64,000 bases of DNA. Source: an uncultured Fodinibius sp. Lineage in GTDB: Bacteria; Bacteroidota; Rhodothermia; Balneolales; Balneolaceae. The position numbers and the translations under genes are program-made. Below, piece by piece: positions 5,503 through 63,692 of this stretch (the stretch's first letter is position 1; every line of letters begins with the position of its first letter). The stretch spans positions 1,302,001-1,366,000 of the forward strand of contig CAJXMW010000001.1 of assembly GCA_913056235.1 (NCBI GenBank). Direction: 5' to 3'. The notes beneath the pieces were generated by a model that was not told the origin of the DNA, made no database searches, and saw only the letters and a list, made by a program, of their open reading frames with translations.

Positions 5503-5749
5503 ATCAGTGTAACAATTTAGATTAGGAGTTATGATTGTTACACCAAGACAAATGCTAAGCGATGGGACTCGATAGTTTTGGAAGTCATCCCACATCATTT
5601 GGCCACCGTGCCTCGAGTGGGTCGGTTGGCAAGCCCCTCGGCTTTCTTGATGCTACTTTAAAGGTAAAATTTTTAGCGGAAAAAATTAAAGAACCATTAC
5701 TCAAGCATTTTGTAAATTTCAGGTAGGTCATAGTGGGTTATTATACCCA

Positions 5750-8475: not shown

Positions 8476-8487
8476 AAAATATACATT

Positions 8488-11400: not shown

Positions 11401-12108
11401 GAATCACAGCTTTATGAACATCTAATTTGGGCTCGCAAAGTTAAAAGAGCATTGGATGATGGATTGGAAGATACCATTCAAGAGCTTCGACAAACGCTTC
11501 TAACACTTAGAAAATTTCCTGGGAAGATATATCAGCGAATAGAAAGAGAATTGGCGGAAGAGATAGAGGTCGCAGAGCAACGATTAAATTCTGATGATTT
11601 TTTCAAGTATAACGAAACATATCAGACGCTTTTAACAGATTTAACTGTGAAAGTGAGAGAAGTAATAAAAGATGAAAAAAGAAATCAGCAGGAGTTACTT
11701 GACCAGGCCAAGAAAGATTTTGCAAGACATGATGAGTGGGAAGAGCTAACCAAGCAAGAGCAGCAAGAGGTTATTTCTTCTGTATCTAACTTAGTTGAAG
11801 AAGTAAGTAATGACTTAAAAGGGTTAGAAAATGTATTAGATCAAACTTCTGCAATTCATCGAGAGGTATCAGAACAAAAGAAAAATATAAGAGATATTGG
11901 TACTGATCGACGTACAAAAAGACTTAAAGAAGAGCGTGAAAAAACTGGGGGTGAACCAGGTGAAAAAATTTCCAGAAAAGTTCAAGTTCCAGATAAGATC
12001 AATAATCGTCAGGAACTTGAAGAACTGATTAAAAAATTACAGCGACTGAAAAGTGAAATGGAGCTCAATCAAGAAATAGACGTAGAGTTTGAACTAAATA
12101 ATCGGTAG
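8488..12108 (+). CDS. brxC: BREX ATPase BrxC
   Basis: A 1206-residue protein. A Walker A motif 'GFYGSGKSS' lies at about residues 73-81 and a Walker B 'NVIFVVDEIGQ' near 250-260, followed by a large C-terminal region rich in coiled coil (about 900-1200). This is the BrxC/PglY type of ATPase (DUF499-like), thought to couple ATP use to recognition or methylation control in the BREX complex. Length and place between brxB and pglX are as expected for type 1 BREX. It is intact, with 3 bases separating it from pglX. Confidence 0.9.
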   Translation: MKIRALFDKDKGIDRPIEKVITYAADSEEYLKREVSEYIVTDHIEDQFRELMDKMQYAMESGNSFEVGVWVSGFYGSGKSSFTKYFGMAMDDSITIDGIPFREHLKDRFRDKEVKAFLNTLPQKFPATVVMHDLASEQISDDPTADVTTILFHKVLQLAGYSRNMKVAAFERKLKKDNRYQEFLNLFKDEVDEEWHNYQNDPLIVDGILPELAHEMYPKLFPDSTSFKSDDEDIIVMTDERVKEMLDIIYEWKGNENVIFVVDEIGQYVGSQQELITNLDGLAKNLKDIGKGNVWIIGTAQQTLTEDNPKAAINSPELYKLKDRFPIQIDLESSDIREISYRRLLEKSPEGKEKLEDLFENYGQSLRTKTKLENAKYYDSQFDKETFVKLYPFLPAHFDILLHLLGQLAKSTGGMGLRSAIKVIQEILKGDGERTEGVANKQVGWLATTETLYDALEKDIKQAFSTVYNSVSNVEIQFPDSQIHIAVAKTVAILQILKNIPITEHNISALLQSSIEGPSFSEKVSKAVDDMISNPRLPFGEQNGSLRFFSEKLNEIEKDRAEIIPRTIELKRIFSEGLKNVFNRLPSVKVHGSLNVQTGMKLYSPQGNHQPLDGDRKTIQTIFDFVESNLYEDELNQLIEESRQGINQNNIFVIARKKERLLELQREIFKSQEIINKHRNDPDSEVKEYIESQKGLESKYKVELQSKLKQQMAAGSIIFRGQQISVDTLGSDIVEALNNYLSEVAETVYDRFKEAPVRASTELAELFLKTDNIGSITEEKDPLNLVQIKGGNPQIDVDQKAIVSIRDYLENSGIAEGKYLINKFSDAPFGWSQDTIRYLIAAMLVAGEIKLRTGGREVTTKGQLAIDALKNNKSFKKVGIGLRDDRPSNEVLEKASERLTKILGDNVLPLEQDIVEKVREEFHQFKDLNVIQYRLSALDLPGEDRISDLMKQIDDVLSSDASDAPQRLGKSESQLYEHLIWARKVKRALDDGLEDTIQELRQTLLTLRKFPGKIYQRIERELAEEIEVAEQRLNSDDFFKYNETYQTLLTDLTVKVREVIKDEKRNQQELLDQAKKDFARHDEWEELTKQEQQEVISSVSNLVEEVSNDLKGLENVLDQTSAIHREVSEQKKNIRDIGTDRRTKRLKEEREKTGGEPGEKISRKVQVPDKINNRQELEELIKKLQRLKSEMELNQEIDVEFELNNR

Positions 12109-12111
12109 AGA

Positions 12112-15100
12112 ATGGCTTTTGACCAAGAAACAAGAAATCGACTGTCTAATTTTGTAGGTCGGACTCGTGATTTATTGACGAAAGAATTCACAAAACAATG
12201 TCAAAATCTGTATGGGTTGGACCCCGAAAAAGGCACAGTGGCGGATATATCAGCATTATCTCAACTGAATGATGTTCAGCTTGAAACAGCTAAGATTCTT
12301 CGGAGTACACTTGATCATTATCTTGAAGCAGCTCCATCAAGTGATCAAAAAACATTAAAAGAATCTCTTCAGAGAATTGTACGAGAGCAGGCTTTTACTG
12401 TGTTAAATCGACTCTCTGCCTTGAAAATGGCGGAAGCAAGAGGATTGTTAATTGAGGTTTTGGCAGATGGTTATCAGTCAAAAGCATTTCAACTTTACAA
12501 GCGATTAGCTGGACCGGCTTTAGGAGAAACCGGTGATACCTATCAACATTTTTTGTTTAGTGTTTTTGATGAGTTGGCAGTAGATCTGCCAATGTTTGAT
12601 CGCTTTAGTCCGAATGGGCGATTGTTTCCAAGGGAATCTGTTCTACTGAACGTACTTGAAGAAATTAATCATCAAGATTTAAAAGATCTCTGGTCTGAAG
12701 ATGAGACCATTGGTTGGATCTATCAATATTTCAATTCGCAAGAAGAGCGTAAGGCGATGAGAAAAGCTAGCAATGCCCCACGGAATAGTCGGGAGTTAGC
12801 TGTTCGCAATCAATTTTTTACTCCTCGATATGTGGTGGAATTTCTTGTAGATAATTCCCTGGGCAAGTTTTGGTTGAATCAAACTGGTGGCCAGACGATC
12901 CTACGTGAAAAATGCAATTATTTGCTGGTTAAGTCGGATAAAGAAAAGAATCAAACGAATAAAATACGTGATCCAAGATCAATAAAGCTTTTAGATCCTG
13001 CATGTGGGTCAATGCATTTTGGTTTATATGCTTTTGATTTATTTTTAAAAATTTATAAAGAAGCATGGGAATGGGAAGAGAGATTTGGAAAAGATTCCCT
13101 TATAGTTGATGAGGAAAAAGAAAAGCATCTTGAGCCTCTAAAAAAATGTTATGAAAATAAAGAGGAATACCTTTTTGATGTACCTCGATTAATAATAGAA
13201 CATAATATTTACGGAATAGAAATTGATGCAAGAGCTGCACAGATAGCAAGACTTGCACTATGGTTACGTGCCCAACGTGAATGGCATGAAATGGGGATTA
13301 AACCCATAGATCGTCCCAAAGTTGGGAAGGAACAGATAGTAGCTGCAGTAGCTCCACCTGCAAATGAAGAGTTAAGAAAGAAATTCTCAAATCATTTAGA
13401 TCCTAAAGATGCTGAGTTATTTGAGAAAACTTTAGACCTTCTTCAGGGTGCACCGGAGTTGGGTGGATTACTTCGAGTGGAAAAGGATATTCCGAGATTA
13501 GTTAAAGAAGTTTTTGGTGAGCAGGGGCCAATATTTGCTGATACTGATGATAAGCGTTGGCAAGAAGCAGAATATAGACTAAGAAGTGCGCTTAAGGAAT
13601 TTGTTAAATCATCAGATAGATACTCAAGCCAATTGTTTGCAAATGATGCAATTCAGGTATTAAGATTCATAGATTTACTTGAAAATAAATTTGATATAGT
13701 AGTTATGAATCCACCTTTTGGTAAATTTCCAAAAGGTTCAAAAAAATATCTCAAAGACCAATACCCAAACTCCTGTCGAAATATATTATGTGCGTTTATC
13801 AGTCGGATGCATGAACTTGCACCAGATGGCTTTGTTGGATCAATTTCTGACCGAACTTGGTTACAAAAAACTACCTATGAGTCATTTCGGGAAGAACTTT
13901 TAACTGGAACTAATGTTGTTAATATAATTGCAGATCTTGGTTGGGATGTGCTTGATGGGGCTCAGGTAGCTACATGTTTGACAATAACTGGGAACCCTAA
14001 TAGTTCATTTGTCTCATCAATTGATGCCCGAAATTTTACAACTAAAGAAAAAGCGTCTTTTTTAAAAGAATCTATAAATGTAAATCCACCTAAAATATCA
14101 AATACTAAAAGAAAGGCATTTTCAACCTTTCCTGATTGTGCCTTAGCACATTGGTGTCCTGATGGTTTAAAATCTCTTTTTGAAGACGGAGTTAAAATTG
14201 ATCCAGAAATTGGTGATTCAAAAAGAGGTATTTCTTCAGGTGATACGACTAGAGCATTTCGATTAATTTGGGAGGTACCTCTTGATGAAATTGGTTTAGA
14301 AAAGCGTTGGGCGCCATTACAAAATGGTGGTTCAGTTTCTCCATTTTATAGAGATACTCAACTAGTAAGCTGGTATGAAGGGAATTTTAAGGCACTTGAA
14401 CCATTAAAGGGCTCACGCTTGCAAAATTTGGAATATATAGGTAAGCCAGGTTTGAGTTGGTCGAAAAGGTGTGATTTTATCGCACCTTATCTAATGAGCC
14501 GTGGACACACATTTACAGATGAAGGTCAGGGTTTATTCTTGCATGGCGAAAAGCAGTCGTGGTATCTCTTAGCATTACTAAATTCAAAAGCCTTTCAATA
14601 TTCCCTTAATCTTTTTTGTGGGCAGCATAAAAGCAATGGTTATGTAGGAAAGCTTAAAATACCTCGGAATATAAATGGCCATTCCCAAAAAGAGTCTCTG
14701 ATCAAATTAGCTAAGGAGGCTTATCAAATTGCTAAATCTGTTGCAATTAAATCTGAGCCGCATTCAGAGTTTGATTTTTCGTTCCTATACAAAATGAGTG
14801 AAAATCACGAATCTATAATAAACATTGTAAAAAAATGGTTGGAAAAGGATATCGCTGCCTCTAAAAAGTTACAGCAGCTACAGAATGAAATTGATGAAAT
14901 AGTATTTGAAGTTCTTAATCTTGATGAAAATGACATTGCAATAATCAATAAATCTTTGTCAGAAAGACAAAATATTTCTTCATCCTTATATAATCAGTTA
15001 TCTGAAGATGATAAAGTAGGTATTGAGTCCAGATGTCTTCAAATCCTAATGTTTATGGTTGGAATTGCATTTGGCCATTGGACAAGTAATAATTTAAATA

Positions 15101-15978
15101 TTAATCATAGCGAACCTTTTGAAGAGCCTAAAATAGACAATTCAAATAATAGTGTAGAAAAAAAGAATACATTAGTATTTACAAACGATAAAGATTCTGA
15201 ATTTTCAATTCTAAAGGCTTTAGAACAAGCAGAAGAAGAGTTATGGACAAATACAAAAGCTAAATACCTTTGGGAAATATTTTCAACTCTTGAAGTTTCG
15301 AGTTGGGAAGTTCTTTTCTCATCTGATGGATTGTTTTTTGATTGGCACGTTGATAAGTACTCTTTTGGGAGAGGGTTACGCAGATCTGGACCTATATATT
15401 GGCCAATAGCTTCGAAAAACGGGTCTTTAACTATCTGGCTATATTATCATCAGTTGAGTAATCAGACTTTATACCACTGTATAAATGACATTATTGAGCC
15501 TAGATTAAAGAGTATATCTCAAGAAAAAGAGAATGTACGTGATTCTAATACTTCTAAATTAGAATCTTTAACTGAATTAGAAGTAGAGATTAAACATTTT
15601 AGGGATAAATTGGAAAAAATTGCGCAAAAATGGAGACCAAATTTAAATGATGGGGTGCAAGTTAATGCCGCTCCATTTTGGGATCTATTTCAACATAAAA
15701 AATGGCGCAAACAGTTAAAGAAAGTCTGGAATGGTTTAGAAAATGGAGAATATGAATGGTCACATTTGGCAATGACTTATTGGCCTGAGAGAGTAGTGAA
15801 ATCCTGTTTAGAAAATAAAAGCATTGCTATAGCACATGGTTTAGAACAGGAGCTTTGGGAAGAAGTGGAAGTGGAAAAAGAAGATCGATGGGGAAATGTA
15901 AAAAAGGAGAAGGAATGGAAGCCTAAAGAATTATCTAAGCAAGAATTGAGAAAAATTGCTGATCGATTTAAAAAATAA
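12112..15978 (+). CDS. pglX: BREX adenine-specific DNA methyltransferase PglX
   Basis: A 1288-residue N6-adenine methyltransferase. 'FFTPRYVVEFLVD' and the SAM-binding motif 'LLDPACGSMHFG' (about residues 293-304) are followed by the catalytic 'NPPFGKF' at about 533. The remaining 700 residues are the target recognition and PglX-specific region. It should methylate the host BREX motif and so mark self DNA. The motif itself cannot be predicted here. The length is within the normal 1150-1300 range. No homopolymer or inverted repeat suggesting phase variation was noticed. The start ATG is 3 bases after the brxC stop. Confidence 0.93.
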   Translation: MAFDQETRNRLSNFVGRTRDLLTKEFTKQCQNLYGLDPEKGTVADISALSQLNDVQLETAKILRSTLDHYLEAAPSSDQKTLKESLQRIVREQAFTVLNRLSALKMAEARGLLIEVLADGYQSKAFQLYKRLAGPALGETGDTYQHFLFSVFDELAVDLPMFDRFSPNGRLFPRESVLLNVLEEINHQDLKDLWSEDETIGWIYQYFNSQEERKAMRKASNAPRNSRELAVRNQFFTPRYVVEFLVDNSLGKFWLNQTGGQTILREKCNYLLVKSDKEKNQTNKIRDPRSIKLLDPACGSMHFGLYAFDLFLKIYKEAWEWEERFGKDSLIVDEEKEKHLEPLKKCYENKEEYLFDVPRLIIEHNIYGIEIDARAAQIARLALWLRAQREWHEMGIKPIDRPKVGKEQIVAAVAPPANEELRKKFSNHLDPKDAELFEKTLDLLQGAPELGGLLRVEKDIPRLVKEVFGEQGPIFADTDDKRWQEAEYRLRSALKEFVKSSDRYSSQLFANDAIQVLRFIDLLENKFDIVVMNPPFGKFPKGSKKYLKDQYPNSCRNILCAFISRMHELAPDGFVGSISDRTWLQKTTYESFREELLTGTNVVNIIADLGWDVLDGAQVATCLTITGNPNSSFVSSIDARNFTTKEKASFLKESINVNPPKISNTKRKAFSTFPDCALAHWCPDGLKSLFEDGVKIDPEIGDSKRGISSGDTTRAFRLIWEVPLDEIGLEKRWAPLQNGGSVSPFYRDTQLVSWYEGNFKALEPLKGSRLQNLEYIGKPGLSWSKRCDFIAPYLMSRGHTFTDEGQGLFLHGEKQSWYLLALLNSKAFQYSLNLFCGQHKSNGYVGKLKIPRNINGHSQKESLIKLAKEAYQIAKSVAIKSEPHSEFDFSFLYKMSENHESIINIVKKWLEKDIAASKKLQQLQNEIDEIVFEVLNLDENDIAIINKSLSERQNISSSLYNQLSEDDKVGIESRCLQILMFMVGIAFGHWTSNNLNINHSEPFEEPKIDNSNNSVEKKNTLVFTNDKDSEFSILKALEQAEEELWTNTKAKYLWEIFSTLEVSSWEVLFSSDGLFFDWHVDKYSFGRGLRRSGPIYWPIASKNGSLTIWLYYHQLSNQTLYHCINDIIEPRLKSISQEKENVRDSNTSKLESLTELEVEIKHFRDKLEKIAQKWRPNLNDGVQVNAAPFWDLFQHKKWRKQLKKVWNGLENGEYEWSHLAMTYWPERVVKSCLENKSIAIAHGLEQELWEEVEVEKEDRWGNVKKEKEWKPKELSKQELRKIADRFKK

Positions 15979-15983
15979 ATATC

Positions 15984-18506
15984 GTGCAAATAAAAGAATT
16001 CATTAAAAATAAAGTACTAAAGGCTCGTTTAGATGAAGCCAGTGTACTCGTGGTATATGACGAACAGAAACGTTATAAAGAATTATGCAAAGAGTTAAAG
16101 TATGATTTTCTTGAAATTATTGATTGTTCGGAAAGTAGTATCTTAAGTCGAGAAGAGGGATATCGCGCTCTTCAAAAGTTGGGAGATTCAAAATCCAACC
16201 TTAATCACCTGCTTATTTATGTACCTACAAATGTACCAACTTCACAAAAAGAGAAGTTGAATGACCCTTATTGGGTTTTTGCTGAGATGGGAGAGGTATT
16301 TCCTCATCCTCAACATGATGGTGATAGCTATCTGAGCTTATGCTTAAAAGCTAAACCTGAGTATGCTGCCGAAGTACAGCGTGTTTTTAGTGAAAATGAG
16401 TCACCTGCTTTTGAGGTTATCGATGCTATTGGTGGAGGAAAAGAATGGCCGACCCTTCGCTCTCTTTTAGACGAGGAATCTGTTACTGAAATTATTTTGG
16501 CAATTCTAAAGCCTTCAGAGGAACAAAAGGAAGCACTACAAGAAAGTAAGACATGGATAAATGAGCTTAACAAGCTTTTAAAAGATGCCTTTGATTACTC
16601 ACTAAAAACTGAGGTTCAACATTGGGAACATATTTCAGATGAGCTATGGCGGTTTATGCTTTATAGTGAGTTAGCTTTATCACTAACAGCTGAGGAGCCA
16701 GAAGCCTTAAAATCTATACCACGTGCTCCCAGAGAAGCAAAGCCTCTAATATCAAAGATTTGTGAAAATTTACGTCAGGATAAACGCAAAAGAGGATTGT
16801 ATATTAGGAAATCTGAAGATATTGAGGAGGATTATAATTTAGAATCAAACTTATCTGGAATTTCAGAAAGTGTAACTTCATATACCTTCCCTTTTGAAGA
16901 GAGAAAGAAACTAAAAAAAGCAATTCAAGCTTTATTAGATTCTGATTTAGATCAAGCTATTAGTATTCTTAATGATCAGAAGCAGTCCATTTGGAGTGAC
17001 TTGGGAGAAAATCAGATTGAATGGCAAATTGTACGTTCAGCATATTCAGTGCTTAGAGAATGTGGCGATCGTAAAAGAGATTATAAAGAACACTGCCATT
17101 CATTAAATGAATTATTCGATTACTATATTTATACATTTCGTGAGGCTGATAAGGTTCAGAGAGAATTTGAACAATCTTGGGCTGATTACAGGAATCGGGA
17201 TGAAGCTCTTTTATCCTTAGCAAAACATACAAGGGATGTATACCGATCACTTATTGAAGATGTGCAAGTTAAATTTATGAATCTCGTTCATAAAGAGGGA
17301 TGGCCTGTAGCTGATAAAAAATTTAATGCTGATGTATTTGATCAACAGGTTGCTCCAAAGGTAGAGAAGAGTGGATACCGCGTAGCATATATCATGGCAG
17401 ATGCGCTACGTTATGAATTAGCAGAAATACTTGAACAAAACTTAAAATCTTATGGCTCAGTTGAATTAGAGGCCTCATGTGCCCAATTACCTACAGTTAC
17501 GCCAGTAGGAATGGCAAGTCTATTACCAAAGGCGGGATCAAACTTAAATATAGATATTATTGATGGAGCGCTCTCCGTAAAAATTGAAGGAGAGAAAATT
17601 AACAGGGTGCCAAAAAGAATGGCTGCTTTCGAAAAGAGATTTGGAGCAAGGTTCTGTGAGATGCCTATTAATGATTTTATTAAAAAAAGGAAAAAGGTAC
17701 CCAAGGAGACTGAGCTGTTAGTTTTACGTAGTATGGAAATAGATAGCCATCTTGAAAGTAATCCGGAGACGACGTTAAAACTTATACCTGATTCTCTACT
17801 GAATATACAAAGTGCTGTCAACCTACTCAGAGATAAGGGATTTAAAGAGGTACATATAGTGAGCGACCATGGTTTCTTTTTGAATTATCATGCGGGACCT
17901 GGTGATGTCTGCAAGAAGCCAAATGGTAATTGGACGATGGTTCATGATCGGATGATGTTAGGGGATGGAGACGAAGATGAACAAAATATCGTGATGCCGT
18001 CAGAAAAAGCAGGAGTGAAAGGAAATTTTCCTAAGATTGCTGCTCCCAGAAGCATGGCTCCCTACAAAGCTGGTGAACTTTTCTTCCACGGAGGATTGTC
18101 TCTACAAGAGGCTATTGTACCTGTCTTATCAGTGATGCTTAAAGAAGAAGAAGCAACAGAACAGCAGTTTGATGTAAACCTAACGTATCGTGGAGGACTG
18201 GAAAAAATAAACTCCCGAATACCAGTTTTTAATTTAGAAGTAGGAAAGAGAGAGTTGTTTTTTGAGGAGGATCTTGAATTAAAAGTAATTGCAAAGGATA
18301 AGGAAGGAAACGTTGTTGGAGAACCTCAGCCGGGAGGTGCTGTTAATCCTGGATCAGGTTTGGTAACAATAAATCCTGGAGATAGTGAGAAAGTTGTTGT
18401 TCGTATGCAAGAAGATTTTGAGGGGGATTTTCAAGTAATTGTTATGGATCCCAATACAGATGTTACATACGCTACTCTTAGCCTTGAAACAGATTATATG
18501 GTGTAA
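15984..18506 (+). CDS. pglZ: BREX alkaline-phosphatase-superfamily protein PglZ
   Basis: An 840-residue PglZ of the BREX-1 type, with a GTG start 5 bases after the pglX stop. The alkaline phosphatase-like core is visible: 'YIMADALRYELAEI' near residue 470 supplies the first metal-binding Asp, and 'VHIVSDHGFFL' near 625 the Asp-His pair. In characterised homologues PglZ is a metal-dependent nuclease/phosphodiesterase that works with PglX. The C-terminus is a beta-rich domain. It is 3 bases from brxL. Intact. Confidence 0.9.
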   Translation: MQIKEFIKNKVLKARLDEASVLVVYDEQKRYKELCKELKYDFLEIIDCSESSILSREEGYRALQKLGDSKSNLNHLLIYVPTNVPTSQKEKLNDPYWVFAEMGEVFPHPQHDGDSYLSLCLKAKPEYAAEVQRVFSENESPAFEVIDAIGGGKEWPTLRSLLDEESVTEIILAILKPSEEQKEALQESKTWINELNKLLKDAFDYSLKTEVQHWEHISDELWRFMLYSELALSLTAEEPEALKSIPRAPREAKPLISKICENLRQDKRKRGLYIRKSEDIEEDYNLESNLSGISESVTSYTFPFEERKKLKKAIQALLDSDLDQAISILNDQKQSIWSDLGENQIEWQIVRSAYSVLRECGDRKRDYKEHCHSLNELFDYYIYTFREADKVQREFEQSWADYRNRDEALLSLAKHTRDVYRSLIEDVQVKFMNLVHKEGWPVADKKFNADVFDQQVAPKVEKSGYRVAYIMADALRYELAEILEQNLKSYGSVELEASCAQLPTVTPVGMASLLPKAGSNLNIDIIDGALSVKIEGEKINRVPKRMAAFEKRFGARFCEMPINDFIKKRKKVPKETELLVLRSMEIDSHLESNPETTLKLIPDSLLNIQSAVNLLRDKGFKEVHIVSDHGFFLNYHAGPGDVCKKPNGNWTMVHDRMMLGDGDEDEQNIVMPSEKAGVKGNFPKIAAPRSMAPYKAGELFFHGGLSLQEAIVPVLSVMLKEEEATEQQFDVNLTYRGGLEKINSRIPVFNLEVGKRELFFEEDLELKVIAKDKEGNVVGEPQPGGAVNPGSGLVTINPGDSEKVVVRMQEDFEGDFQVIVMDPNTDVTYATLSLETDYMV

Positions 18507-18509
18507 TAC

Positions 18510-20573
18510 ATGGATAAACTTGATCAAAAGTTAACAGACGTATATACAGGTAAAGTTGTTAGAAAAGACCTACTTCATCGCATAAAAAAAGGGACTAATG
18601 TTCCAACATTTGTGCTTGAATTCCTTTTAGCACGTTTTTGTGCCAGTGATGATCCAGATGAGATAGAGGCAGGCCTTCAGGCTGTTCTAAATACGTTACA
18701 AGAAAATTATGTTAGGCCTGATGAAGCGAATGCTGCACAATCACGGGTTGCAACTAAAGGGAAGCATCGGTTCATTGATAAAGTACATGTCCGGTATGTA
18801 GAGAAAGAAAAAAGACATTGGGCAGAGCTAGAGAACTTCAATTCAAGACGTATAGCAATAGGTGAGCGATTTTTCAAAGATAATCAACGTTTACTTGAGG
18901 GAGGTATCTGGGCAGAAGTTACGGTAGGCCATAATGATATCGAAGATGATAATTATGCATTTTATCTTGAGGATATCAGGCCTATTCAGCTAAGTAAATT
19001 TGACTATGACAAATATAAGGAGAATAGAGATAGGTTCAGTAGAGATGAATGGATAGATGTCGTTTTAAGATCCTTGGGGCTTGAACCAAGTAAACTTACA
19101 CAAAGGGTGAAGCTTCATTTTATTGCCCGTTTGATTCCACTTGTGGAATCAAATTATAATTTCATTGAGCTGGGGCCGAGGGGTACAGGTAAATCCTATT
19201 ACTATAGTGAGTTTTCACCATACTCTACTTTAATTAGTGGTGGTCAAACCTCTAAGGCAACATTATTCTACAACAATAATCGAAAAAAAGTTGGACTCGT
19301 TGGCTACTGGGATACTATTGCTTTTGATGAGGTTGGAGGGATTAAAGTAAGGGATCCAGATACAATCCAGATTATGAAAGATTTCATGGCCAATGGAAGA
19401 TTTTCTAGAGGTGTTGAGGTTATAGCAGATGCAAGTTTTGCCTTTGTAGGTAATTTTGATTTGTCTGTAAAGCAGGTGGTGAATTCTACCGAATATGATT
19501 TATTTCAACCATTGCCAGATGAGTTTGATTTAGCGGTAATGGATCGAATTAATTTCTATTTACCCGGATGGGAGATGCCCAAGAATAGTTCTGATTATTT
19601 AACAGAAAACTATGGATTTATAACTGATTATCTCGCTGAGGCTTTTCACTATCAGGCGAAACATATAAGTCGGTTCGATGATGTTAATAAACGTTTCCAA
19701 CCTGGTCCTTCAATAGAGGGCCGGGATGAGAAAAGTGTTAAAAAAACGCTTAGTGGTTTGTTTAAAATTCTACATCCTAATGGTAGCCCTACGGACAAAG
19801 AATTTGAAGAATATGTAGAATATGCCTTAGAGGCACGTCGTAGAGTTAAGGAGCAAATGAATAAAAGAAAGCCTGACGATGAGTTCGCTAAGATCAACCT
19901 TTCTTATTTTGATTCAACCGGTAATGAACAGATAGTTTACTGTCGAGAATCTCAAGATGCACATGCTACTCAAAACCCTGTTCGAAGTAAGATAGAAGAA
20001 TCAGGTTCAGCATCAACAGAGTCTCAAAAGAAAGATTTAGATACTACTACTGAAGAGGTAGATCCGGAAGAGGCAGATGAAATAGTAGAGTCAGAGATTG
20101 AAGAACTCAAAGAGAAACATTTTACAATTACTTATGGAGCTACAGGTTTTAGCTATGAATCAATTATGAAGAGCTACTTCCATAATGCTAAATCTGTTGT
20201 TGTAGAAGATCCCTACATCCGGGCACCTCATCAAATTCAAAACTTCATAAGGTTTTGTGAGATGGCTGTTAATATTGGAACAATTAAGAAAATTGAACTG
20301 ATTACTAGCTATGATAAGGAGACAGATATTGATGAGGTTGAGTCTAACCTTAAAGATCTCAAGCAAAGTCTTCTAGAGAGCGATATTGAACTCACATTTG
20401 AATTTGACCCAAATCTTCATGATCGAGAAATACGCTTAGATAATGGATGGATTATTAAAATTGGTAGGGGGCTAGATATTTATCAGAAACCCAATAATTG
20501 GTATGAAGTGGGGAATTATGATATGGACCTTCGTAAATGCCTTGAGACGAAAGTGGATATATACAAGACTTAG
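18510..20573 (+). CDS. brxL: BREX protein BrxL, AAA+ core with C-terminal MIT_C domain
   Basis: A 687-residue protein closing the BREX operon. The N-terminal BrxL domain is followed by an AAA+ core, with Walker A 'LGPRGTGKSYY' near residue 220, 'TLISGGQTSKATLFYNN', and Walker B 'TIAFDEVGG' near 270. BrxL forms hexameric rings on DNA in characterised systems. The usual C-terminal part is Lon-protease-like. Here, after an acidic linker (about 500-530), residues 538-687 instead match the MIT_C domain known from human MITD1: 'VVEDPYIRAPHQIQNFIRF', 'HDREIRLDNGWIIKIGRGLD' and 'DMDLRKCLETKVDI'. MIT_C has a phospholipase-D-like fold. The domain reading is from memory of MITD1. Confidence 0.88.
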   Translation: MDKLDQKLTDVYTGKVVRKDLLHRIKKGTNVPTFVLEFLLARFCASDDPDEIEAGLQAVLNTLQENYVRPDEANAAQSRVATKGKHRFIDKVHVRYVEKEKRHWAELENFNSRRIAIGERFFKDNQRLLEGGIWAEVTVGHNDIEDDNYAFYLEDIRPIQLSKFDYDKYKENRDRFSRDEWIDVVLRSLGLEPSKLTQRVKLHFIARLIPLVESNYNFIELGPRGTGKSYYYSEFSPYSTLISGGQTSKATLFYNNNRKKVGLVGYWDTIAFDEVGGIKVRDPDTIQIMKDFMANGRFSRGVEVIADASFAFVGNFDLSVKQVVNSTEYDLFQPLPDEFDLAVMDRINFYLPGWEMPKNSSDYLTENYGFITDYLAEAFHYQAKHISRFDDVNKRFQPGPSIEGRDEKSVKKTLSGLFKILHPNGSPTDKEFEEYVEYALEARRRVKEQMNKRKPDDEFAKINLSYFDSTGNEQIVYCRESQDAHATQNPVRSKIEESGSASTESQKKDLDTTTEEVDPEEADEIVESEIEELKEKHFTITYGATGFSYESIMKSYFHNAKSVVVEDPYIRAPHQIQNFIRFCEMAVNIGTIKKIELITSYDKETDIDEVESNLKDLKQSLLESDIELTFEFDPNLHDREIRLDNGWIIKIGRGLDIYQKPNNWYEVGNYDMDLRKCLETKVDIYKT

Positions 20574-20631
20574 TTATTAAGATGCATTAGATGGAAGTAT
20601 TTATCAGTTACTTAAATTATATCTTATTGCT

Positions 20632-20874
20632 ATGACTAAACACCAAGAGTTATTAGAGAATAAGTTTCCTCATGCTAAAGAGAATCTACTATTTAATAAA
20701 TCAGATGATGAGGCCTGGAGTTTATTTCGGACCCAAAGTGGAGGGGTAACCATATACTACCACGATTCGGATAACTTTTACATTGTGGATCCTCAAAAAG
20801 CAGAACATTATTTACTTAAGGAGATTGCCGAAAGTTGGGAGCGAGTGACAAATACAATTGTGGCTAGAAATTAA
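20632..20874 (+). CDS. Small hypothetical protein downstream of brxL
   Basis: An 80-residue soluble protein 58 bases after brxL on the same strand, so it may be the last gene of the BREX transcript. It contains aromatic and acidic stretches ('GGVTIYYHDSDNFYIVD') and no known motif. It could be a BREX accessory protein or unrelated cargo. I do not recognise the family. Confidence 0.5.
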   Translation: MTKHQELLENKFPHAKENLLFNKSDDEAWSLFRTQSGGVTIYYHDSDNFYIVDPQKAEHYLLKEIAESWERVTNTIVARN

Positions 20875-20999
20875 TTCTGTAGAGAGCAAATGAATTTCTT
20901 AATGCTATTAACCAAGGAAATTAGGGATTGAAATAAAAATTGATGGTTGATTGTACTATTAGTTTATTTCAATAAATTCTATGAAAAGTAGCTGAAATG

Positions 21000-21165
21000 T
21001 CGCGCCGGGGCTTGTTTACAAGTGACCCGAGTCAGAGGCTGGGTATTAATCTACGGCCTGCTCTTTTGAGTGGGAAAGGCCAGCTAAGATGTTATGATTT
21101 TCCATAAAGATACAACTTTGTGGAAATCGATTCGATTTCATCGGTTAGAAACCGACCCGCGGCGA
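21000..21165 (+). ncRNA. Candidate structured ncRNA upstream of the reverse transcriptase
   Basis: This stretch is sharply more GC-rich than its surroundings and folds on inspection into a closed multi-hairpin structure. The closing stem pairs CGCCG-GGG (21003-21010) with CCC-g-CGGCG (21156-21164). Inside are CTTG-TTTA-CAAG (21011-21022), GGCC/GGCC enclosing CTC-TTTT-GAG (21055-21081), an 11-bp hairpin with loop ATACAA (21099-21126) and TCGGTT-AGA-AACCGA (21141-21155). The RT gene starts 33 bases later. Several defence RTs and all retrons use an RNA encoded directly upstream as template or primer. The role here is inferred from structure and position; ends are approximate. Confidence 0.65.
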
Positions 21166-21197
21166 GTAGGCTACTTTTCTTCTTTTAATTTTCTACT

Positions 21198-22694
21198 ATG
21201 AGAGGGTACGAAAACTTTTTTGGAGAGAAGGAAATAATACGCTACTTGGCTAATAAAAGGGCGAAGGCAGCCAAAGATATTCATGACAATCAATTTCTGC
21301 GAAACATAAGTAGAAATGCTCAGAAGCCGTTTGATCCTGAGAAAAAGAAACGAATCTATAAATATTTCCCCCCGAGAAATAATTGGATTAGATTTCGCAA
21401 AAAAGAAAGAAAACAGTATTCAAATTCTAAATCACTTAATGCTGCCCAACTAGAAAGAACAGTTTGGAGAGAGCACAAAAGAATAAAAAGAGGCGATTCT
21501 GATGAGCGTGATTGGCACAAAAATTTATTTTCACTAATAGATGCAATAAGAGAAAGGGCTTTGTCTGATGTTCCAAAACAAATTAGTAGTCCAAAGCTTA
21601 TACCAGTAGTTAAGAGTAAGGAGGATAATACATATCGCTTAATTTCATCATTCGAGAAAATTGTTGACAAGGTATTAATTAGCCAAACTGCTAAATATTT
21701 AACAGAAATATTTGATCCACTATTTGAAGATTGCTCTTATGCATTTAGAGCAAAGAACAAGAAGAATTTTACCCACCATTTAGCAGTAAGGGAAATCATA
21801 GAATATAAATCAAACTACAATTCTCAGAGGCTATACGCAGCTGAGTCTGATATCCAAAAATTCTATGATTCAATAAATCATTCTACAATCAAAGATCGTT
21901 TTGATGTTTTAGTTCAAAAGCTAAAAGTTACTGGAATTGTCGTTGATGAAAGAGCAAAGAGTATCTTCTATGCATATTTGAATTGCTATGCTTTTAATAA
22001 AGATGTGTATCCCAAGGAAGAAGAAATATTAAATAAACATCAAATTAATGAGGGAAATATAGCTTGGGTTAAGCCTTCAGATTTGAAAGATGTTAACAGT
22101 AATATTGACAACGATCGAATAGGAATTCCTCAAGGAGGTGCATTATCTTGTCTCATTGCAAATATTGTGCTTGATTATGCTGATAAAGAAATGTTAAATC
22201 TAAATTTGCGATCGTTATTTTATGCACGTTTTTGTGATGATATTATCATAATTCATCCACAAAAAGGGTCTTGTAGAAGAGCCTACAATCAGTATTTGCA
22301 GTGTTTGGAAGATTTAAAGCTACTTGCTCATGATGCAGAAACTTTTGAGGAATACAATGCTGATTTTTGGGATATTAAAAGTAAAGAGCCATATGTCTGG
22401 AATCGTGTTAATAAGAGTCACAGACTAGCTAAGAAAAATGTGCCTTGGTTGGCTTTTGTTGGGTATCAATTACGTTACGATGGTTTGTTACGTGTTCGAC
22501 CTGACTCGATCCAAAAGGAGTTAGAAAAACAAGTTGAGGAAGCGAATAAGGTTATAAATAGTTTGCCAAATGAAGATTCAAAAAGATTAAAGAAAAGAAA
22601 TATTTTATTTCGATTTTCACAACGACTTATAGCTATGTCTGTGGGTAGAGTAAATAGCGAAGACCAAGCAATGTGTTGGGCATCTGGTTTTTAA
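21198..22694 (+). CDS. Reverse transcriptase (defence-type candidate), C-terminus frameshifted
   Basis: A 498-residue reading frame with reverse transcriptase motifs: catalytic Asp in 'ESDIQKFYDSI' (about 217), 'GIPQGGALSCLIANIVL' (about 309) and 'YARFCDDIIII' (about 341-349), so the active site is FCDD. Residues 1-140 are a basic N-terminal extension. There is no maturase or endonuclease domain, so this is not a typical group II intron protein, and it is much longer than retron RTs. It resembles the unknown-group/DRT class, but I cannot name a subtype. The frame stops at 22694 after an apparent extra G in GGG (22678-22680); the natural C-terminus probably continues to 22905. The structured RNA at 21000-21165 lies directly upstream. 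Confidence 0.85.
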   Translation: MRGYENFFGEKEIIRYLANKRAKAAKDIHDNQFLRNISRNAQKPFDPEKKKRIYKYFPPRNNWIRFRKKERKQYSNSKSLNAAQLERTVWREHKRIKRGDSDERDWHKNLFSLIDAIRERALSDVPKQISSPKLIPVVKSKEDNTYRLISSFEKIVDKVLISQTAKYLTEIFDPLFEDCSYAFRAKNKKNFTHHLAVREIIEYKSNYNSQRLYAAESDIQKFYDSINHSTIKDRFDVLVQKLKVTGIVVDERAKSIFYAYLNCYAFNKDVYPKEEEILNKHQINEGNIAWVKPSDLKDVNSNIDNDRIGIPQGGALSCLIANIVLDYADKEMLNLNLRSLFYARFCDDIIIIHPQKGSCRRAYNQYLQCLEDLKLLAHDAETFEEYNADFWDIKSKEPYVWNRVNKSHRLAKKNVPWLAFVGYQLRYDGLLRVRPDSIQKELEKQVEEANKVINSLPNEDSKRLKKRNILFRFSQRLIAMSVGRVNSEDQAMCWASGF

Positions 22695-22905
22695 TGTTTT
22701 AAAAGATAATCCAGTTAGAAAATGGCAATTGCGTAAGTTGGATAAAAACAGAAATCTTCAAATATCAAGAGTTAAAAAACATCTTGAAAAATTTGAAGAA
22801 AAATCTGCAAACTGGGATAAGAAGGATAAAAATCGGTATCGGGATTATTATGGGCCGCCTTATAGTTATTATTATCAATTCATAGATAAAGAAAATAATG
22901 ATTAA
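22681..22905 (+). pseudogene. Out-of-frame C-terminal remainder of the reverse transcriptase
   Basis: Reading from 22681 one base out of phase gives 74 further codons without a stop, rich in Lys and Tyr, ending '...YYYQFIDKENND' with TAA at 22903-22905. Skipping one G of the GGG at 22678-22680 joins it smoothly to the RT frame, giving about 568 residues in total. Its stop overlaps the start of the SbcD-like gene by 8 bases (ATGATTAA), as expected for the original operon. Either a sequencing indel, a recent inactivation or, less likely, programmed frameshifting explains this. Confidence 0.65.
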
Positions 22906-24004
22906 AATTTTCCATATAGCAGATCTTCATCTTGGCCGCACATTCCGCAACTTACCTGAGGCCCAAGACACGCTTTCCGAAACTCGGTATGAAACTCTCC
23001 AAAAGACGGTTGACAAAGCCAATGAATTAGAGGCCGACATTTTTGTCATTGCCGGTGACTTGTTTGATAAGACCTCGGTCAAGGTTGGAGATATTCAAAA
23101 AGCGGTAAAAGCTATTAATAGTTTTGCCGGAGAAATAGCATTTGTGCTGCCCGGCAATCATGACTATATCACTGCTGATAGTCAGCTCTGGGAGCGGTTC
23201 CAGAAAGAGGCCGAAGAGCATGTGATTGTGTTGGATAAAAAAGAACCATTGGAGCTGTCTGTTTTTGACAAAGAGATTTTCGTCTATCCGGCTCCCTGTC
23301 ATGCCAAGCACTCTTCTGAGCATGCCATCGGCTGGGTTCAAGAGATCGAAAAAGATGAGAATGCGGTGCATTTTGGCATTGCCCACGGAAGTATCGAGGG
23401 AGTGTCTCCCGATTTTGATCAGCGTTATTTCCCGATGTCCATTCACGAGCTCGAACGTTCAGGCGTTGACCTGTGGCTGATGGGACACACACATATAACT
23501 TGGCCGGAGCAGCCCGGCAAGCGGGACATGATTTTTAATCCCGGTACGCCTGAACCGGATGGATTTTCTTGCAATCACGAAGGGCGGGCTTTCTTGCATA
23601 CTATCAACGAAGAGAAACAGATTGATACGGAAATTATAATTACGGGTACGTATCGTTTTGTACAAGCTTCGGAGACGGTTTCCAACGAGGATGACGTATC
23701 CCAACTTATTGAAGATTACAGCGGTGATGGGTGGAATAACTGTGTGCTGCAACTTGAGGTAAGCGGTAAGTTGGAAGAAGAAGCCTTAAAAGCCTGGAAA
23801 GAAGAACGATCAGAGATAAGGGATGCAGTGTTGGAATTGCGCCTAGATGATTCGGGAGTCCGGCGGAAGGTAACCAGCGAGCAAATACAGAAAGAGTTTT
23901 CGGAAGGGTCGTTTCCCGAACAGTTGTTATCCTCTTTCTCTGAAGAAGATGAGGAAGAAGAGCTGCAGATGGCTTATGAACTGATTAAAGAGGTGCAACA
24001 ATGA
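22898..24004 (+). CDS. SbcD/YhaO-like metallophosphoesterase (nuclease)
   Basis: A 368-residue calcineurin-like phosphoesterase of the Mre11/SbcD type. The metal-binding motifs are in order: 'IADLHLG' (residues 7-13), 'GDLFD', 'GNHD' and 'MGHTHI'. DLHLG so close to the start fixes the ATG at 22898, inside the end of the out-of-frame RT tail. Its own stop overlaps the ATG of the SbcC-like gene (ATGA). Such proteins are Mn-dependent nucleases that work with an SMC-like ATPase to open or trim DNA ends and hairpins. It is more GC-rich than the RT gene before it, so the two may have different histories. Confidence 0.85.
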   Translation: MIKIFHIADLHLGRTFRNLPEAQDTLSETRYETLQKTVDKANELEADIFVIAGDLFDKTSVKVGDIQKAVKAINSFAGEIAFVLPGNHDYITADSQLWERFQKEAEEHVIVLDKKEPLELSVFDKEIFVYPAPCHAKHSSEHAIGWVQEIEKDENAVHFGIAHGSIEGVSPDFDQRYFPMSIHELERSGVDLWLMGHTHITWPEQPGKRDMIFNPGTPEPDGFSCNHEGRAFLHTINEEKQIDTEIIITGTYRFVQASETVSNEDDVSQLIEDYSGDGWNNCVLQLEVSGKLEEEALKAWKEERSEIRDAVLELRLDDSGVRRKVTSEQIQKEFSEGSFPEQLLSSFSEEDEEEELQMAYELIKEVQQ

Positions 24005-26442
24005 GAGTATCCAAAGTGTTTCTCCATCCCTTTGCTGGAATTGAAGAGAAAACATTTGAGTTTGAGGAAGGACTAAATGTACTGCTGGGTCCAAACGAAG
24101 CGGGCAAGTCTACGGTATTTCGTGCCGTTATGCATGGCCTGTTGACCACGACTTCACTGACTCGGACAAAAGTGGAAGACATTATGGGAAGCTACTTTCC
24201 TGCCGTTGGGGGCGATGTGATTCGTGTGAGTTTAGAGATGAAAAACTCTAAGGATGAAGTTGTTCAGATTGTTAAAACCTGGAAGAAAGGCAACCGAAAT
24301 GGCAGTGCTTCGCTGAAGTTGCCTGATGGGACTGAGCTCACCGACGAGGAAGCAGTGCAAGATCACATTGAAGAACTGCTTCCAGTTTCACCAGCCACGC
24401 TTCGAACCATTATGCTGGCCGATCAGTCAGGCTTACACCAGACTATGCGCAAGATGGAACAGGAAGGTAAGGTGAGAAAAGAGTTGGGGAATATACTTAG
24501 AAAAAACTTTATGGAAACCGGTGGAGTGTCGGTAGATCGATTTCGAGAGCTAATTGATCAGAAATATGAGGATTATTTTAAGCGCTGGAATCGTCAGCAG
24601 CAGTATCCCGAAAACAATCGCGGTATTAAAAATCCCTACAAGGTCGGAACCGGCAAAGTCGTTGAAGCTTATTATAAGAAAGAGCAACTCCGCCTTGACT
24701 TAGAAGAAGCCGAGCGTTTTGAAGATGATCTGGATTCACTGAATGAAACGCTAAATAAGCTAATTACCCAGCAGGAAAAAAAGAAGGAGAAGTTTGAACA
24801 GCTTAATCCCCTAAAAGAAGGCATTCAAGAGCGACAGCTTAAAGAGCAAAAGTTAGAGTCGGCCCAAGATAAAAAAGAGCGCTTGCTTCACGTAAGCAAT
24901 AAATGGCCTGTTTTTAACGATAGATTAGAAAACCTGGAGCCCAAGCTTGAGGCAAACCGGGAAAAATTAGAGGAGCTTCAGCAAGAGCAACAAAAGGCAC
25001 AAAACAAACAGAAGGGCGAACAGCTAAAACAACGAATTACTAAAATTGAAGAGCTTGCCTCACAGGTAGAAGAAGCGAAAAATGAACTTAAAGAGGCTCA
25101 AAAAGTAACGCAGGATGACCTTAAAAAGCTACGAGAACTTCAGTCGGATATACGTCAGCTACAAACGAAGATAGAAGCAGCCAAACTTACCGTTCGCATC
25201 GAAAGCGATTCTGATCAAGCCTTACGTTATACCGAAGCTGGTCAGGATGAGCAGAATATTGAGAGCAAGAAGGGGGAAACTCTTGAGAAAACGGCATCCG
25301 GTGGATTTACTCTGAAAACAGACGGGCTTATGGTAAAAGTGTTTTCAGGAGATGGAGATCTTGAAGATACGATCGAAACCCTTCAGACAGAGAAAGAAGA
25401 GCTTAACAGTTATTTAGATGATCTTGAGGTCGGGTCAGTACAAGATGCAGGGTCTTATGCCGAGCTCTACCAAAAGAAAGAGAATGATCTGGGACAGGCT
25501 AAAAAGGCCTATAAGAGTGAATTGGGTGACCAAAAGCTTGAAGACCTTAAAGAAAAGCTGAAAGACTATGGGAATTTATCTGAGGTAAGAGACTCTGAAG
25601 AGATAACAGAGGATCTCGTTGAAACAAAGACAGCGTTAAATCAGCTCAAAAAAGAAGCAGCAGATGCAGAGAGTAAGATTGAAGAATGGACGAAAAAATA
25701 CGGCTCCTCGGATGAAGTCATCCTTGAACTGGCCGAAACATCGAAATTAGTCAAGGATCTGGAAAGTGACCTCGATGATCTACCTTCTCTCCCTAAGGGA
25801 TACGAATCTTCCGGAGAATTTATAAAAGAGGTTGAGCAGTTAGATAAAGATATCCAGCAGTTAAAGGAGCATATTTTTGACAAGAAACAGGAACGTACGC
25901 AGTTAGAAGCAAAAGCTCCGGATACCTCATCGGAAGAGTTACAGAAACTAAGCGAAGAAGCTGAAGCTGAATTTGAACGTATTAACAGCCGAGCCGAAAC
26001 GTTGGCACAGGTACGCGAAAAGTCGTTGGAACTGATTGAATCGATGGACAGCGATACCTACAAAGGCCTTGAAACCAGCTTTGTAAAATGGTTGGATCTC
26101 ATGGTTGGCGATCGCTTTCCTAACGTAGATATGGACAGTGATATGCCGACTGCCTTCAAGACACAGGAAGCCACTTCTCTCACCTACAATCTTCTTTCCC
26201 ATGGGACCAAAGATACGGTAGCACTTGCTTGGCGATTTGCCCTATGCGAGAAATTCCTGGAAGAAGGTAATGGGTTTGTGATTCTTGATGATCCCATGGT
26301 GGATATCGATCCTGAGCGCAGAAAGAATGTAGTACAGGCTATCAATAAGTTTTCAGAACAATATCAAACAATTGTTATGACTTGCCATCCGGATCATGCG
26401 GATGAGCTAGGAGTTGAGTATCCATTATCACTAGAATCCTAA
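24001..26442 (+). CDS. SbcC/YhaN-like SMC-type ATPase
   Basis: An 813-residue ATPase and partner of the SbcD-like nuclease, with its ATG overlapping the preceding stop. Walker A 'LGPNEAGKST' lies at residues 30-39, long coiled coils at about 220-380 and 420-680, and the C-terminal Walker B 'FVILDDPMVDIDPERR' near 755-770. It is shorter than canonical SbcC (about 1050) and I see no CxxC zinc hook at the coiled-coil apex, so it is closer to YhaN-type proteins. It probably acts with the upstream nuclease on DNA ends. The coupling to the RT gene suggests joint expression. Confidence 0.82.
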   Translation: MRVSKVFLHPFAGIEEKTFEFEEGLNVLLGPNEAGKSTVFRAVMHGLLTTTSLTRTKVEDIMGSYFPAVGGDVIRVSLEMKNSKDEVVQIVKTWKKGNRNGSASLKLPDGTELTDEEAVQDHIEELLPVSPATLRTIMLADQSGLHQTMRKMEQEGKVRKELGNILRKNFMETGGVSVDRFRELIDQKYEDYFKRWNRQQQYPENNRGIKNPYKVGTGKVVEAYYKKEQLRLDLEEAERFEDDLDSLNETLNKLITQQEKKKEKFEQLNPLKEGIQERQLKEQKLESAQDKKERLLHVSNKWPVFNDRLENLEPKLEANREKLEELQQEQQKAQNKQKGEQLKQRITKIEELASQVEEAKNELKEAQKVTQDDLKKLRELQSDIRQLQTKIEAAKLTVRIESDSDQALRYTEAGQDEQNIESKKGETLEKTASGGFTLKTDGLMVKVFSGDGDLEDTIETLQTEKEELNSYLDDLEVGSVQDAGSYAELYQKKENDLGQAKKAYKSELGDQKLEDLKEKLKDYGNLSEVRDSEEITEDLVETKTALNQLKKEAADAESKIEEWTKKYGSSDEVILELAETSKLVKDLESDLDDLPSLPKGYESSGEFIKEVEQLDKDIQQLKEHIFDKKQERTQLEAKAPDTSSEELQKLSEEAEAEFERINSRAETLAQVREKSLELIESMDSDTYKGLETSFVKWLDLMVGDRFPNVDMDSDMPTAFKTQEATSLTYNLLSHGTKDTVALAWRFALCEKFLEEGNGFVILDDPMVDIDPERRKNVVQAINKFSEQYQTIVMTCHPDHADELGVEYPLSLES

Positions 26443-26481: not shown

Positions 26482-27705
26482 CTAATGATTTTTTTCTTGA
26501 TCTAACTTTTCAAAACTTTTTGCGAAATGCGGACCAATTTCATTAATAATACTTTCAAGTTTTCCTCCTACCTCAAAGAATTTATTAATCCTATTTCGAA
26601 TTTGTTCAAAATTTAAATCTGAAATTTCTTTTTCGGAGAGGATTTCGTGTGAAAAAATTTGGCTGTGATTTTCTGCTGTGCTATTGCCATCTACTACCGA
26701 AGAGCCTTTGTAATTATTGGCTGTTTTAAGCAGTTGATTCCTCATTGAATCAGGACCAGGTCCGATAACCAGACATAACCTGAGCGGCTTGGAAGCCCTA
26801 TTCTTGAATTCAAATAAGAGAATTTTTCCATACTCTCCCCAATCATTTTCAACAGATTGAGAATCATACTCATCCCAGCTTTCCAAGGAAAAGCGAATGA
26901 GGCTTTTTGTAAATTTATCAGGCACGATATTTTTTTGAGTATTCTTTATCTTTTCTTGAAGTAACTCAGATATTTCAGATCTCAGATCAGGTTTATTTTC
27001 ATAAATCAAATCGATTGCATCACCATGTTCACGATATATTTTTCGACAGAGTTCTTTTATGGTTGAGTCTTCCAAGATATGCCTCCGTAGTATTTCATTA
27101 TAATGTTTGAGTAAGTTTAAGACTTCATCTGAAACTATAGACTTTTTAAGATCAATAATTTTTTCAAATATACTTTGAATCTCTTTATATGAGTATGCTA
27201 TCCAATCACAATTAGATTCGCTGGGTTCTCGACCTTCTGGAGTTAGAAAGATTTTTAAGTGGGTATAATCTTTAAATGAGTCTTCTAACTCTTGGCTATA
27301 TGTTGCAAGTTGTCCATCACCTTCCGAAGCATCTATTTTATTCTCAAAAGCAATAACATTTTCTTGATCCCAGTCAATTATTAAAATGTCAATATTTCTC
27401 CACTCTCTCCTGACTTCTAATTTATCTGCATTAATGGTATCAATATCAATAGGACTAATGATCGTACTGTGATCAAGTTTATAAGTAATATCTTTCAGTA
27501 TTTTTTTACTTACGATATCATGTAATCCATGGTTATTTGAGGGATCCATAAGAAAAGCGAGAAAATCTGAATGACGTAATTCATATCGTACATTACCAAT
27601 AGCTTCAAAAATGTTAAAGTTGGAAATTTTGCTTTCCAGTATTTCCAAGTCCTCGTTATCTACAACAAACTCTTCTAATATTTTTTGTTGGTTCTCTTTG
27701 CCCAT
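26482..27705 (-). CDS. PD-(D/E)XK nuclease-family protein (PDDEXK_4 type)
   Basis: A 407-residue protein. The N-terminal third has the PDDEXK_4 pattern: 'YELRHSDFLAFLMDPSNNHG', then 'RNIDILIIDWDQENVIAFENKID', where the Asp and E-x-K form the nuclease core, and 'QLATYSQELE'. The C-terminal half resembles the conserved region of the same family. Likely a DNase in defence, but no partner is certain. It converges with the SbcC-like gene and lies upstream of nothing obvious on its strand. A second family member, only distantly similar, is at 33586. Confidence 0.75.
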   Translation of the reverse strand: MGKENQQKILEEFVVDNEDLEILESKISNFNIFEAIGNVRYELRHSDFLAFLMDPSNNHGLHDIVSKKILKDITYKLDHSTIISPIDIDTINADKLEVRREWRNIDILIIDWDQENVIAFENKIDASEGDGQLATYSQELEDSFKDYTHLKIFLTPEGREPSESNCDWIAYSYKEIQSIFEKIIDLKKSIVSDEVLNLLKHYNEILRRHILEDSTIKELCRKIYREHGDAIDLIYENKPDLRSEISELLQEKIKNTQKNIVPDKFTKSLIRFSLESWDEYDSQSVENDWGEYGKILLFEFKNRASKPLRLCLVIGPGPDSMRNQLLKTANNYKGSSVVDGNSTAENHSQIFSHEILSEKEISDLNFEQIRNRINKFFEVGGKLESIINEIGPHFAKSFEKLDQEKNH

Positions 27706-63522: not shown

Positions 63523-63692
63523 GTATCAAAGGAATTTCTTTTTGATCTGAAAATTTAAAACAGCAGGGAGTAATACAATAATTTTATTTTTTAGACTAAG
63601 AAAATGTAAATGATCAGAAGGTAGTTGGGTGGACACATCCGGTAAAATTGCCTTACCTTTCGTGTCATTTTAACAACGGAACGATCTGATTC

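Follow-up and report, generated by a model that had tools for sequence, protein, structure and literature searches.

The question raised by this locus is what the GC-rich piece is that lies directly in front of a reverse transcriptase (RT) gene, and what the RT might do with it. The piece is part of a stretch of 64,000 nucleotides, the whole of which was analysed and is called the window. At 21000-21199 the GC content reaches 0.445, whereas all other 200-base intervals from 19000 to 22900 have 0.28-0.40, so that the GC-rich island noticed in a preliminary description made from the letters alone is confirmed. The gene order is a BREX operon, an 80-residue open frame, the RNA element, the RT, and then Mre11/SbcD-like and Rad50/SbcC-like genes. 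The 80-residue frame (20632-20874), between the BREX operon and the RNA, had no match in three libraries. The features are collected in Table 1.

Table 1 Positions in the window of the RNA element, its helices and repeat, the RT and the neighbouring operon
Feature	Position	Strand	Observations
BREX operon (BrxA, BrxB, BrxC, PglX, PglZ, BrxL)	7122-20573	+	Found with PADLOC; context, outside the RNA-RT unit
UG39-associated ncRNA, whole element	20983-21179	+	Fold z −5.40; covariance model R2 matches 20985-21177
P1, outer closing stem	20983-20992 with 21170-21179	+	10 bp; against L036, four two-sided and two one-sided changes, none broken
P2, inner closing stem	21000-21003 with 21162-21165	+	Retained in L036, one G-C pair having become G-U
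P3, hairpin	21011-21015 with 21018-21022	+	One two-sided change against L036
P4b, hairpin	21057-21063 with 21068-21074	+	Against L036, one two-sided and two one-sided changes, none broken
P6, hairpin with loop core AUAAAGAUACAA, candidate template boundary element	21099-21104 with 21121-21126	+	Five of six pairs kept in L036
Period-5 direct repeat TCGATTCGATT, candidate A-B-A' template	21127-21137	+	In all 8 clade A RNAs, the longest direct repeat within the final 110 bases
P7, hairpin	21141-21146 with 21150-21155	+	Kept unchanged in L036
UG39 RT, 498-residue open frame, FCDD active site	21198-22694	+	PADLOC RT_UG39, E 1.1e-156; Pfam RVT_1
C-terminal tail of the RT in another frame, 70 residues, aromatic SYYYQ motif	22693-22905	+	Matches positions 475-540 of the UG39 profile

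With borders taken from its relatives, the 197-nt element folds with −73.6 kcal/mol, a value that none of 200 shuffled sequences reached. The somewhat shorter piece 20990-21175 gave −63.1 kcal/mol (z −2.84), with one of 200 shuffles as good. As the reverse strand of the element also folds (z −4.28), folding energy alone does not fix the strand; the strand of the RNA is fixed by the position before the RT and by covariation. The 3' end lies 18 bases before the ATG of the RT at 21198, with P1 closing at 21179, which corrects the 33 bases initially given. The stem first drawn by eye as the closing one (21003-21010 with 21156-21164) takes in P2, the inner stem, together with the base of P3; on the outside, the element is closed by P1. 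The perfect hairpin of 6 bp described at the same time is P7. The mismatch-free hairpin of 11 bp is present in a constrained fold (21099-21109 with 21116-21126), but no more than its 6-7 outer pairs survive in the folds of the relatives L037, L038, L039 and L043.

Homologues of the RT were sought in 84,980 genomes, which yielded 132 relatives, 80 of them listed. The RT tree contains 78 of the 80 listed relatives and the window; L105 and L110, whose matches start inside the RT, were excluded from the tree and from the upstream analyses. The position of the match served to extrapolate each RT start, which yielded no open frame for L066 and L072. Row L035, with its split RT, was not included in A2. 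In this tree of 79, clade A (support 98) comprises the window and L036, L037, L038, L039, L043, L040 and L041. The records of its members belong to Bacteroidota and Pseudomonadota and are in part MAGs; a spread between phyla is likely, resting partly on binning.

Covariation was examined with L036, the RT of which is 67% identical to that of the window. The whole element is common to both (75.7% identity over 218 bases). The minimum-energy structure of the window (65 pairs) was laid on a structure-blind MAFFT alignment of the two sequences: 93.8% of 129 cells were paired, and six pairs were changed on both sides. Sliding one strand by one to three columns lowered the pairing to 31.0-46.1%, with at most two two-sided changes, and 6 of 500 shuffles reached the observed pairing; in such a two-sequence comparison the shuffles are a weak control and the strand slides the better one. 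The eight broken cells fall in helix 4 (four), helix 8 (two), and helices 2 and 9 (one each), and helix 4 of the minimum-energy fold was not kept. The retained helices (38 pairs) have 98.7% of their cells paired and six two-sided changes, with 10 of 500 shuffles as good. Four of the six two-sided changes are in P1, outside the borders of the first reading.

The six other clade A RNAs have different but complementary strands at the place of P2, and different complementary strands were also found for P7 in the other clade A RNAs. These strands were picked by hand and pair within each RNA by construction; only strand-swapped values are informative. Upon swapping, the pairing of the hand-picked helices was 0.44-0.70, and 1.00 for P6, which hardly varies. 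The P6 loop core recurs in L036, L037, L038, L039 and L043, and with changes in L040 and L041. RNAalifold gave a poor consensus with the raw MAFFT alignment of clade A (−24.8 kcal/mol), because L040, L041 and the P3-P4 region align badly.

A covariance model, R2, was built from L037, L038, L039 and L043, the RTs of which are 42-46% identical, without the window and L036. Taken alone, the four sequences show slight covariation (two pairs, 62 of 500 shuffles as good). R2 recovers the element of the window end to end with 53.1 bits and finds those of L040 (52.5 bits), L041 (39.8 bits) and L036 (36.4 bits), each in the expected place. In the host genome, the element of the window is the only match at E ≤ 1, with 150 of 1071 candidates scored. 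A second match in the window, at 63506-63709 (25.7 bits, E 4.3e-05), is without the P6 core, AT-rich and overlaps gene starts, and was rejected as false. Because of this match, the E-values of R2 are held to be too good and scores near 25.7 bits to be meaningless. R2 also matches the minus strand of L038, over its near-palindromic closing stem.

A lack of covariation among homologues had been set beforehand as a finding that would refute the preliminary description; the test was run, and covariation is present, against L036 and through the recovery by R2. Together with the fold energy it bears out the structured RNA directly upstream of the UG39 RT; as judged by sequence comparison, this RNA is real and conserved. 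No Rfam family matches the element. No paper on UG39 RTs was found in the literature searched, the study that defined the UG groups being outside its scope; the naming of these groups reportedly comes from that one earlier study. The element is apparently an undescribed ncRNA family, as had been thought possible, and is tied to UG39 RTs; it counts as undescribed against Rfam and the literature searched only.

Beyond clade A, the best closing helix upstream of the RT beats all 20 shuffles in 46 of the 79 UG39 loci (the listed relatives and the window). The window itself, with 3 of 20 shuffles as good, is outside the 46, and in some loci the helix that comes out best clearly differs from the one that closes the RNA. 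Subgroup alignments gave closing stems with a consensus structure in several branches. R2 found no RNA upstream of the RT in the 27 other family loci searched, and because R2 misses them, these are linked to the RNA family by place and closing stem only. That the ncRNA is a feature of the UG39 family thus appears to have good but not complete support.

The assignment of the RT is clear-cut in PADLOC, with 521.1 bits for RT_UG39 against 84.8 bits for the next family, Drt2. Lower matches are Drt9 (74.8 bits) and UG17 (59.5 bits), with Drt3a also among the runners-up. Published accounts place Drt2, Drt9, UG17 and Drt3a in the ncRNA-using Class 2 DRTs. A conserved ncRNA encoded in cis, as expected of these RNA-templated systems, is present here as well. 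Against NCBIfam, the top match is group_II_RT_mat (TIGR04416) with 87.8 bits for a cut-off of 300; Drt2 scores 68.2 bits (cut-off 390) and retron_St85_RT 32.8 bits (cut-off 235). The UG39 match and the low retron score agree with the initial impression that the RT is not retron-like. The intact RT of L036 was modelled with a mean pLDDT of 85.5 and a poorly modelled C-terminal tail. With this model, Foldseek found substrate-bound DRT9 first in the PDB (9vma, E 2.2e-14, TM 0.44/0.50), then group II RTs. In VIA-align the top rank went to a DGR RT (Z 22.4, 317 aligned); the group II RT 6ar1 and DRT9 followed, both at Z 21.3 (362 and 426 aligned). In a sequence search against solved structures, group II RTs score first.

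In the window, at 22688-22905, the frame of the RT shifts at a run of T and the conserved C-terminal tail lies in another frame; relatives have intact copies. The cause may be an error in sequencing, a genuine lesion or programmed frameshifting. Because the tail is out of frame in the assembly, this copy may be inactive or mis-assembled. A C-terminal SY is present in 63 of 70 intact homologues (59 by pattern, and L036, L065, L111 and L112 by reading); the other seven have SF (four), AY (one) or neither (two). DRT9 and DRT10 are described as priming from a C-terminal Tyr or Ser.

A candidate for what the RT copies lies between P6 and P7, where all eight clade A RNAs have CGATTCGATT. The period-5 repeat there is 11 to 14 bases long, with at least two units and matched runs of 6 to 9 bases, and L038 differs from L040/L041 in the end at which it is extended. 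P6 followed by this repeat makes an A-B-A' arrangement behind a stable stem-loop in 8 of 8 clade A RNAs, which is not general across the family. The template of DRT10 is likewise an A-B-A' direct repeat behind a stable stem-loop, of which B is removable (PMC12632851). As its members form a single lineage, clade A may owe its repeat to a single inherited event.

Repeats were counted across the family, with 61 hand-picked representatives of the 79 rows and 60 shuffle rounds. Direct repeats with a run of at least 8 at −85 to −35 from the RT start were seen five times against 0.30 expected (shuffle maximum 2), or four times with clade A counted as one. None was found in the next region upstream, and one at −185 to −135 against 0.47 expected. 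Runs of at least 6 at −85 to −35 occur in 14 of the 61 representatives against 5.7 expected, most representatives showing no long repeat and most subgroups no clear one; runs of 6 are also in excess at −185 to −135 (11 against 6.27 expected, shuffle maximum 10). In the latter region, L045 has a long direct duplication (run of 12), close to where its RNA begins on the 5' side. The run-of-8 set has other sequences in the same place, with period 5 in L042 and period 6 in L102 and L058. L042, from Dolichospermum, has TACCCTACCCTACC 60 bases before the RT, a 14-base period-5 repeat with a sequence unlike that of clade A; its last units overlap the predicted closing stem. GTATCA units are found about 35-70 bases before the RT in L075 (about 1.7 copies), L091 (2) and L102 (3), and 10 of 17 B1 relatives of L102/L091 have TGTCA repeated at a distance of 12. 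The best reading of the repeat is that of a template, a role that we infer.

It is considered fairly likely that the element is the ncRNA partner of the UG39 RT, acting as scaffold and as template of short repeat DNA. The RT would bind the folded RNA, with P1-P4, P6 and P7 as the scaffold, and use the short unpaired stretch from P6 to P7 as its template. By slipping back, the growing DNA would realign on the repeat for renewed extension, like in DRT10 and telomerase, with P6 as the 5' boundary. The predicted product is (GAATC)n DNA. A hydroxyl group in the SY tail at the C-terminus might serve as the primer, in the manner of DRT9 and DRT10, and the likely role would be anti-phage defence.

Several known systems resemble such a unit. 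DRT10, which consists of a UG17 RT, a SLATT protein and an ncRNA, also has a structured ncRNA upstream of its RT (PMC12632851). Common to both are a candidate A-B-A' repeat behind a stable stem-loop near the 3' part of the RNA and candidate C-terminal Ser/Tyr priming. The differences are the RT group (521 bits for UG39 against 59.5 bits for UG17), the lack of a SLATT gene among the neighbours examined, the length of the RNA (about 197 nt, against 137 nt for DRT10), and the different sequence of the period-5 repeat. DRT9, an RT with an ncRNA that makes poly-dA, is likewise described (PMC12483538) as having two components, the ncRNA immediately upstream of the RT, and C-terminal tyrosines. The segment before P7 is here a mixed period-5 repeat, whereas that of DRT9 is a conserved poly-U template, and the Drt9 profile of PADLOC scores only 74.8 bits. 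DRT2 also has an ncRNA beside its RT and is the second-best PADLOC family, but the NCBIfam cut-off for Drt2 is missed by far. DRT2 is described as priming from the 3' end of the ncRNA and making a concatemeric gene.

A likeness to telomerase RNA, drawn for DRT10 in PMC12632851, consists of a short template that includes an alignment part, and of a boundary element on the 5' side, all of them candidates here. The Candida telomerase chains align with the L036 model at Z values of at most 16.8 (VIA-align), below the DGR, group II and DRT9 RTs. We take the UG39 RT to be a small bacterial enzyme without telomerase RNA-binding or TEN domains. The UG39 unit is probably a new variant of the ncRNA-templated defence RTs. 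An unstudied group of defence RTs thereby gains an RNA partner with defined borders, a covariation-supported structure and a concrete predicted product.

Other explanations of the element have to be weighed against that of a repeat template. The RNA could be the partner of the RT with the template elsewhere, for example in the P6 loop AUAAAGAUACAACAAU, or it could be a scaffold for untemplated or differently templated synthesis, the period-5 segment serving as a protein or RNA contact. The P6 loop is conserved at least as well as the repeat. In single-RNA folds the repeat is partly paired, and in the window and L036 it can form a hairpin of its own with complementary flanks; moreover, several UG39 subgroups are without a clear long repeat. 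However, the window and L036 have a different P6 loop, without ACAACAA, whereas none of the eight clade A RNAs lacks CGATTCGATT, and the repeats of other sequence in L042, L102 and L058 stand at the same distance. A template other than the repeat is therefore regarded as doubtful.

That the element is a cis-acting leader controlling the expression of the RT, riboswitch-like or autoregulated, rather than a trans-acting RNA, is quite improbable. Its end close to the RT start codon would suit a leader, as would the finding that a sigma-70 consensus scan, outside which other promoter types fall, found no promoter or terminator of its own. Yet the templating RNA bound by the DRT9 RT sits in this very place (PMC12483538), a closed multi-hairpin build of 197 nt with an internal repeat is unnecessary for a leader, and no Rfam riboswitch matches the element. 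Hardly any credence can be given to a retron (msr-msd) or to the remnant of a group II intron. Retrons have a closing stem, formed by the a1/a2 repeats, around a structured RNA before the RT, which the closing stem of the element resembles, and a group II model tops the NCBIfam list; but the retron and group II models both score far below their cut-offs, at 32.8 of 235 and 87.8 of 300, against 521 bits for UG39, and Rfam has no group II intron or retron msr within the whole window.

The proposed repeat-templating unit may have a further component in part of the family. A BT4734-like_N gene adjoins the ncRNA, upstream of it, in 61 of the 79 loci (L045-L115), on the same strand in 42 and on the opposite strand in 19. 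In the RT tree, these 61 loci coincide exactly with the sister group of the clade that holds the window, and the gene was found in none of the 18 other loci within the stretch searched. PriCT_2 is also above its cut-off in two of the four BT4734-like_N copies scanned. From this distribution, the clade of the window looks two-part, and the sister clade three-part with a primase-like protein. The branch with the primase-like gene would be a new architecture. On the Thiospirochaeta plasmid of L035 (4001-5760), a BT4734 family gene stands in front of a UG39-like RT that is split over two annotated genes.

More tentatively, UG39 could be a further bacterial telomerase-like two-part ncRNA-RT unit, making protein-linked pentanucleotide repeat DNA, (GAATC)n here, the repeat being replaced wholesale elsewhere and one large branch having acquired a primase-like protein as a partner, by which the second strand could be made. 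The repeat units in other lineages are TACCC in a cyanobacterium and GTATCA or TGTCAGTATCTT in Bacteroidota. If true, repeat synthesis by template slipping would extend beyond DRT10 to further bacterial RTs, a point of relevance to the bacterial origin proposed for telomerase, and the repeat, varying from lineage to lineage, would offer a natural set of template variants.

The occurrence of UG39 RTs was followed in several sets. In the host's own order/family (97 genomes), no further UG39 RT was found by profile. The profile matched at E ≤ 0.001 in 23 of these genomes, the best E-value outside the host being 7.7e-17, and also in 3 of 14 control genomes; because of this weak best value and the control matches, the non-host matches are read as other RTs. 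Seven UG39 RTs at E ≤ 1e-40 were found in 395 genomes around G215. Viral contigs queried with the RT and with the clade A alignment contained no relative, and phages had no RT match at 1e-10. Two DNA patterns in viral contigs (7 and 8 stretches) were unrelated by eye, and no match was obtained when the RT set was compared with these 15 loci by tblastn. Four plasmid records matched, one with a UG39-like RT (Thiospirochaeta, 32.2%) and three with group II RTs.

As to the neighbourhood, the clade A loci examined for it include OLD-like genes beside L036 and L040, an HmaC-like gene beside L037 and an SMC-like gene beside L038. Because other genes stand beside the loci examined, BREX looks incidental as a partner; the scan for this comparison covered part of the neighbours of the eight clade A loci. 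Directly 3' of the RT in the window, the Mre11/SbcD-like and Rad50/SbcC-like pair (22898-26442) has weak LmuB matches. It is followed on the minus strand by a PD-(D/E)XK protein (26482-27705) of the PADLOC candidate family PDC-S26 (E 5.6e-121; Pfam PDDEXK_4). Upstream of the BREX operon, a SAM-I-IV riboswitch was found with Rfam on the minus strand at 5563-5658 (57.4 bits).
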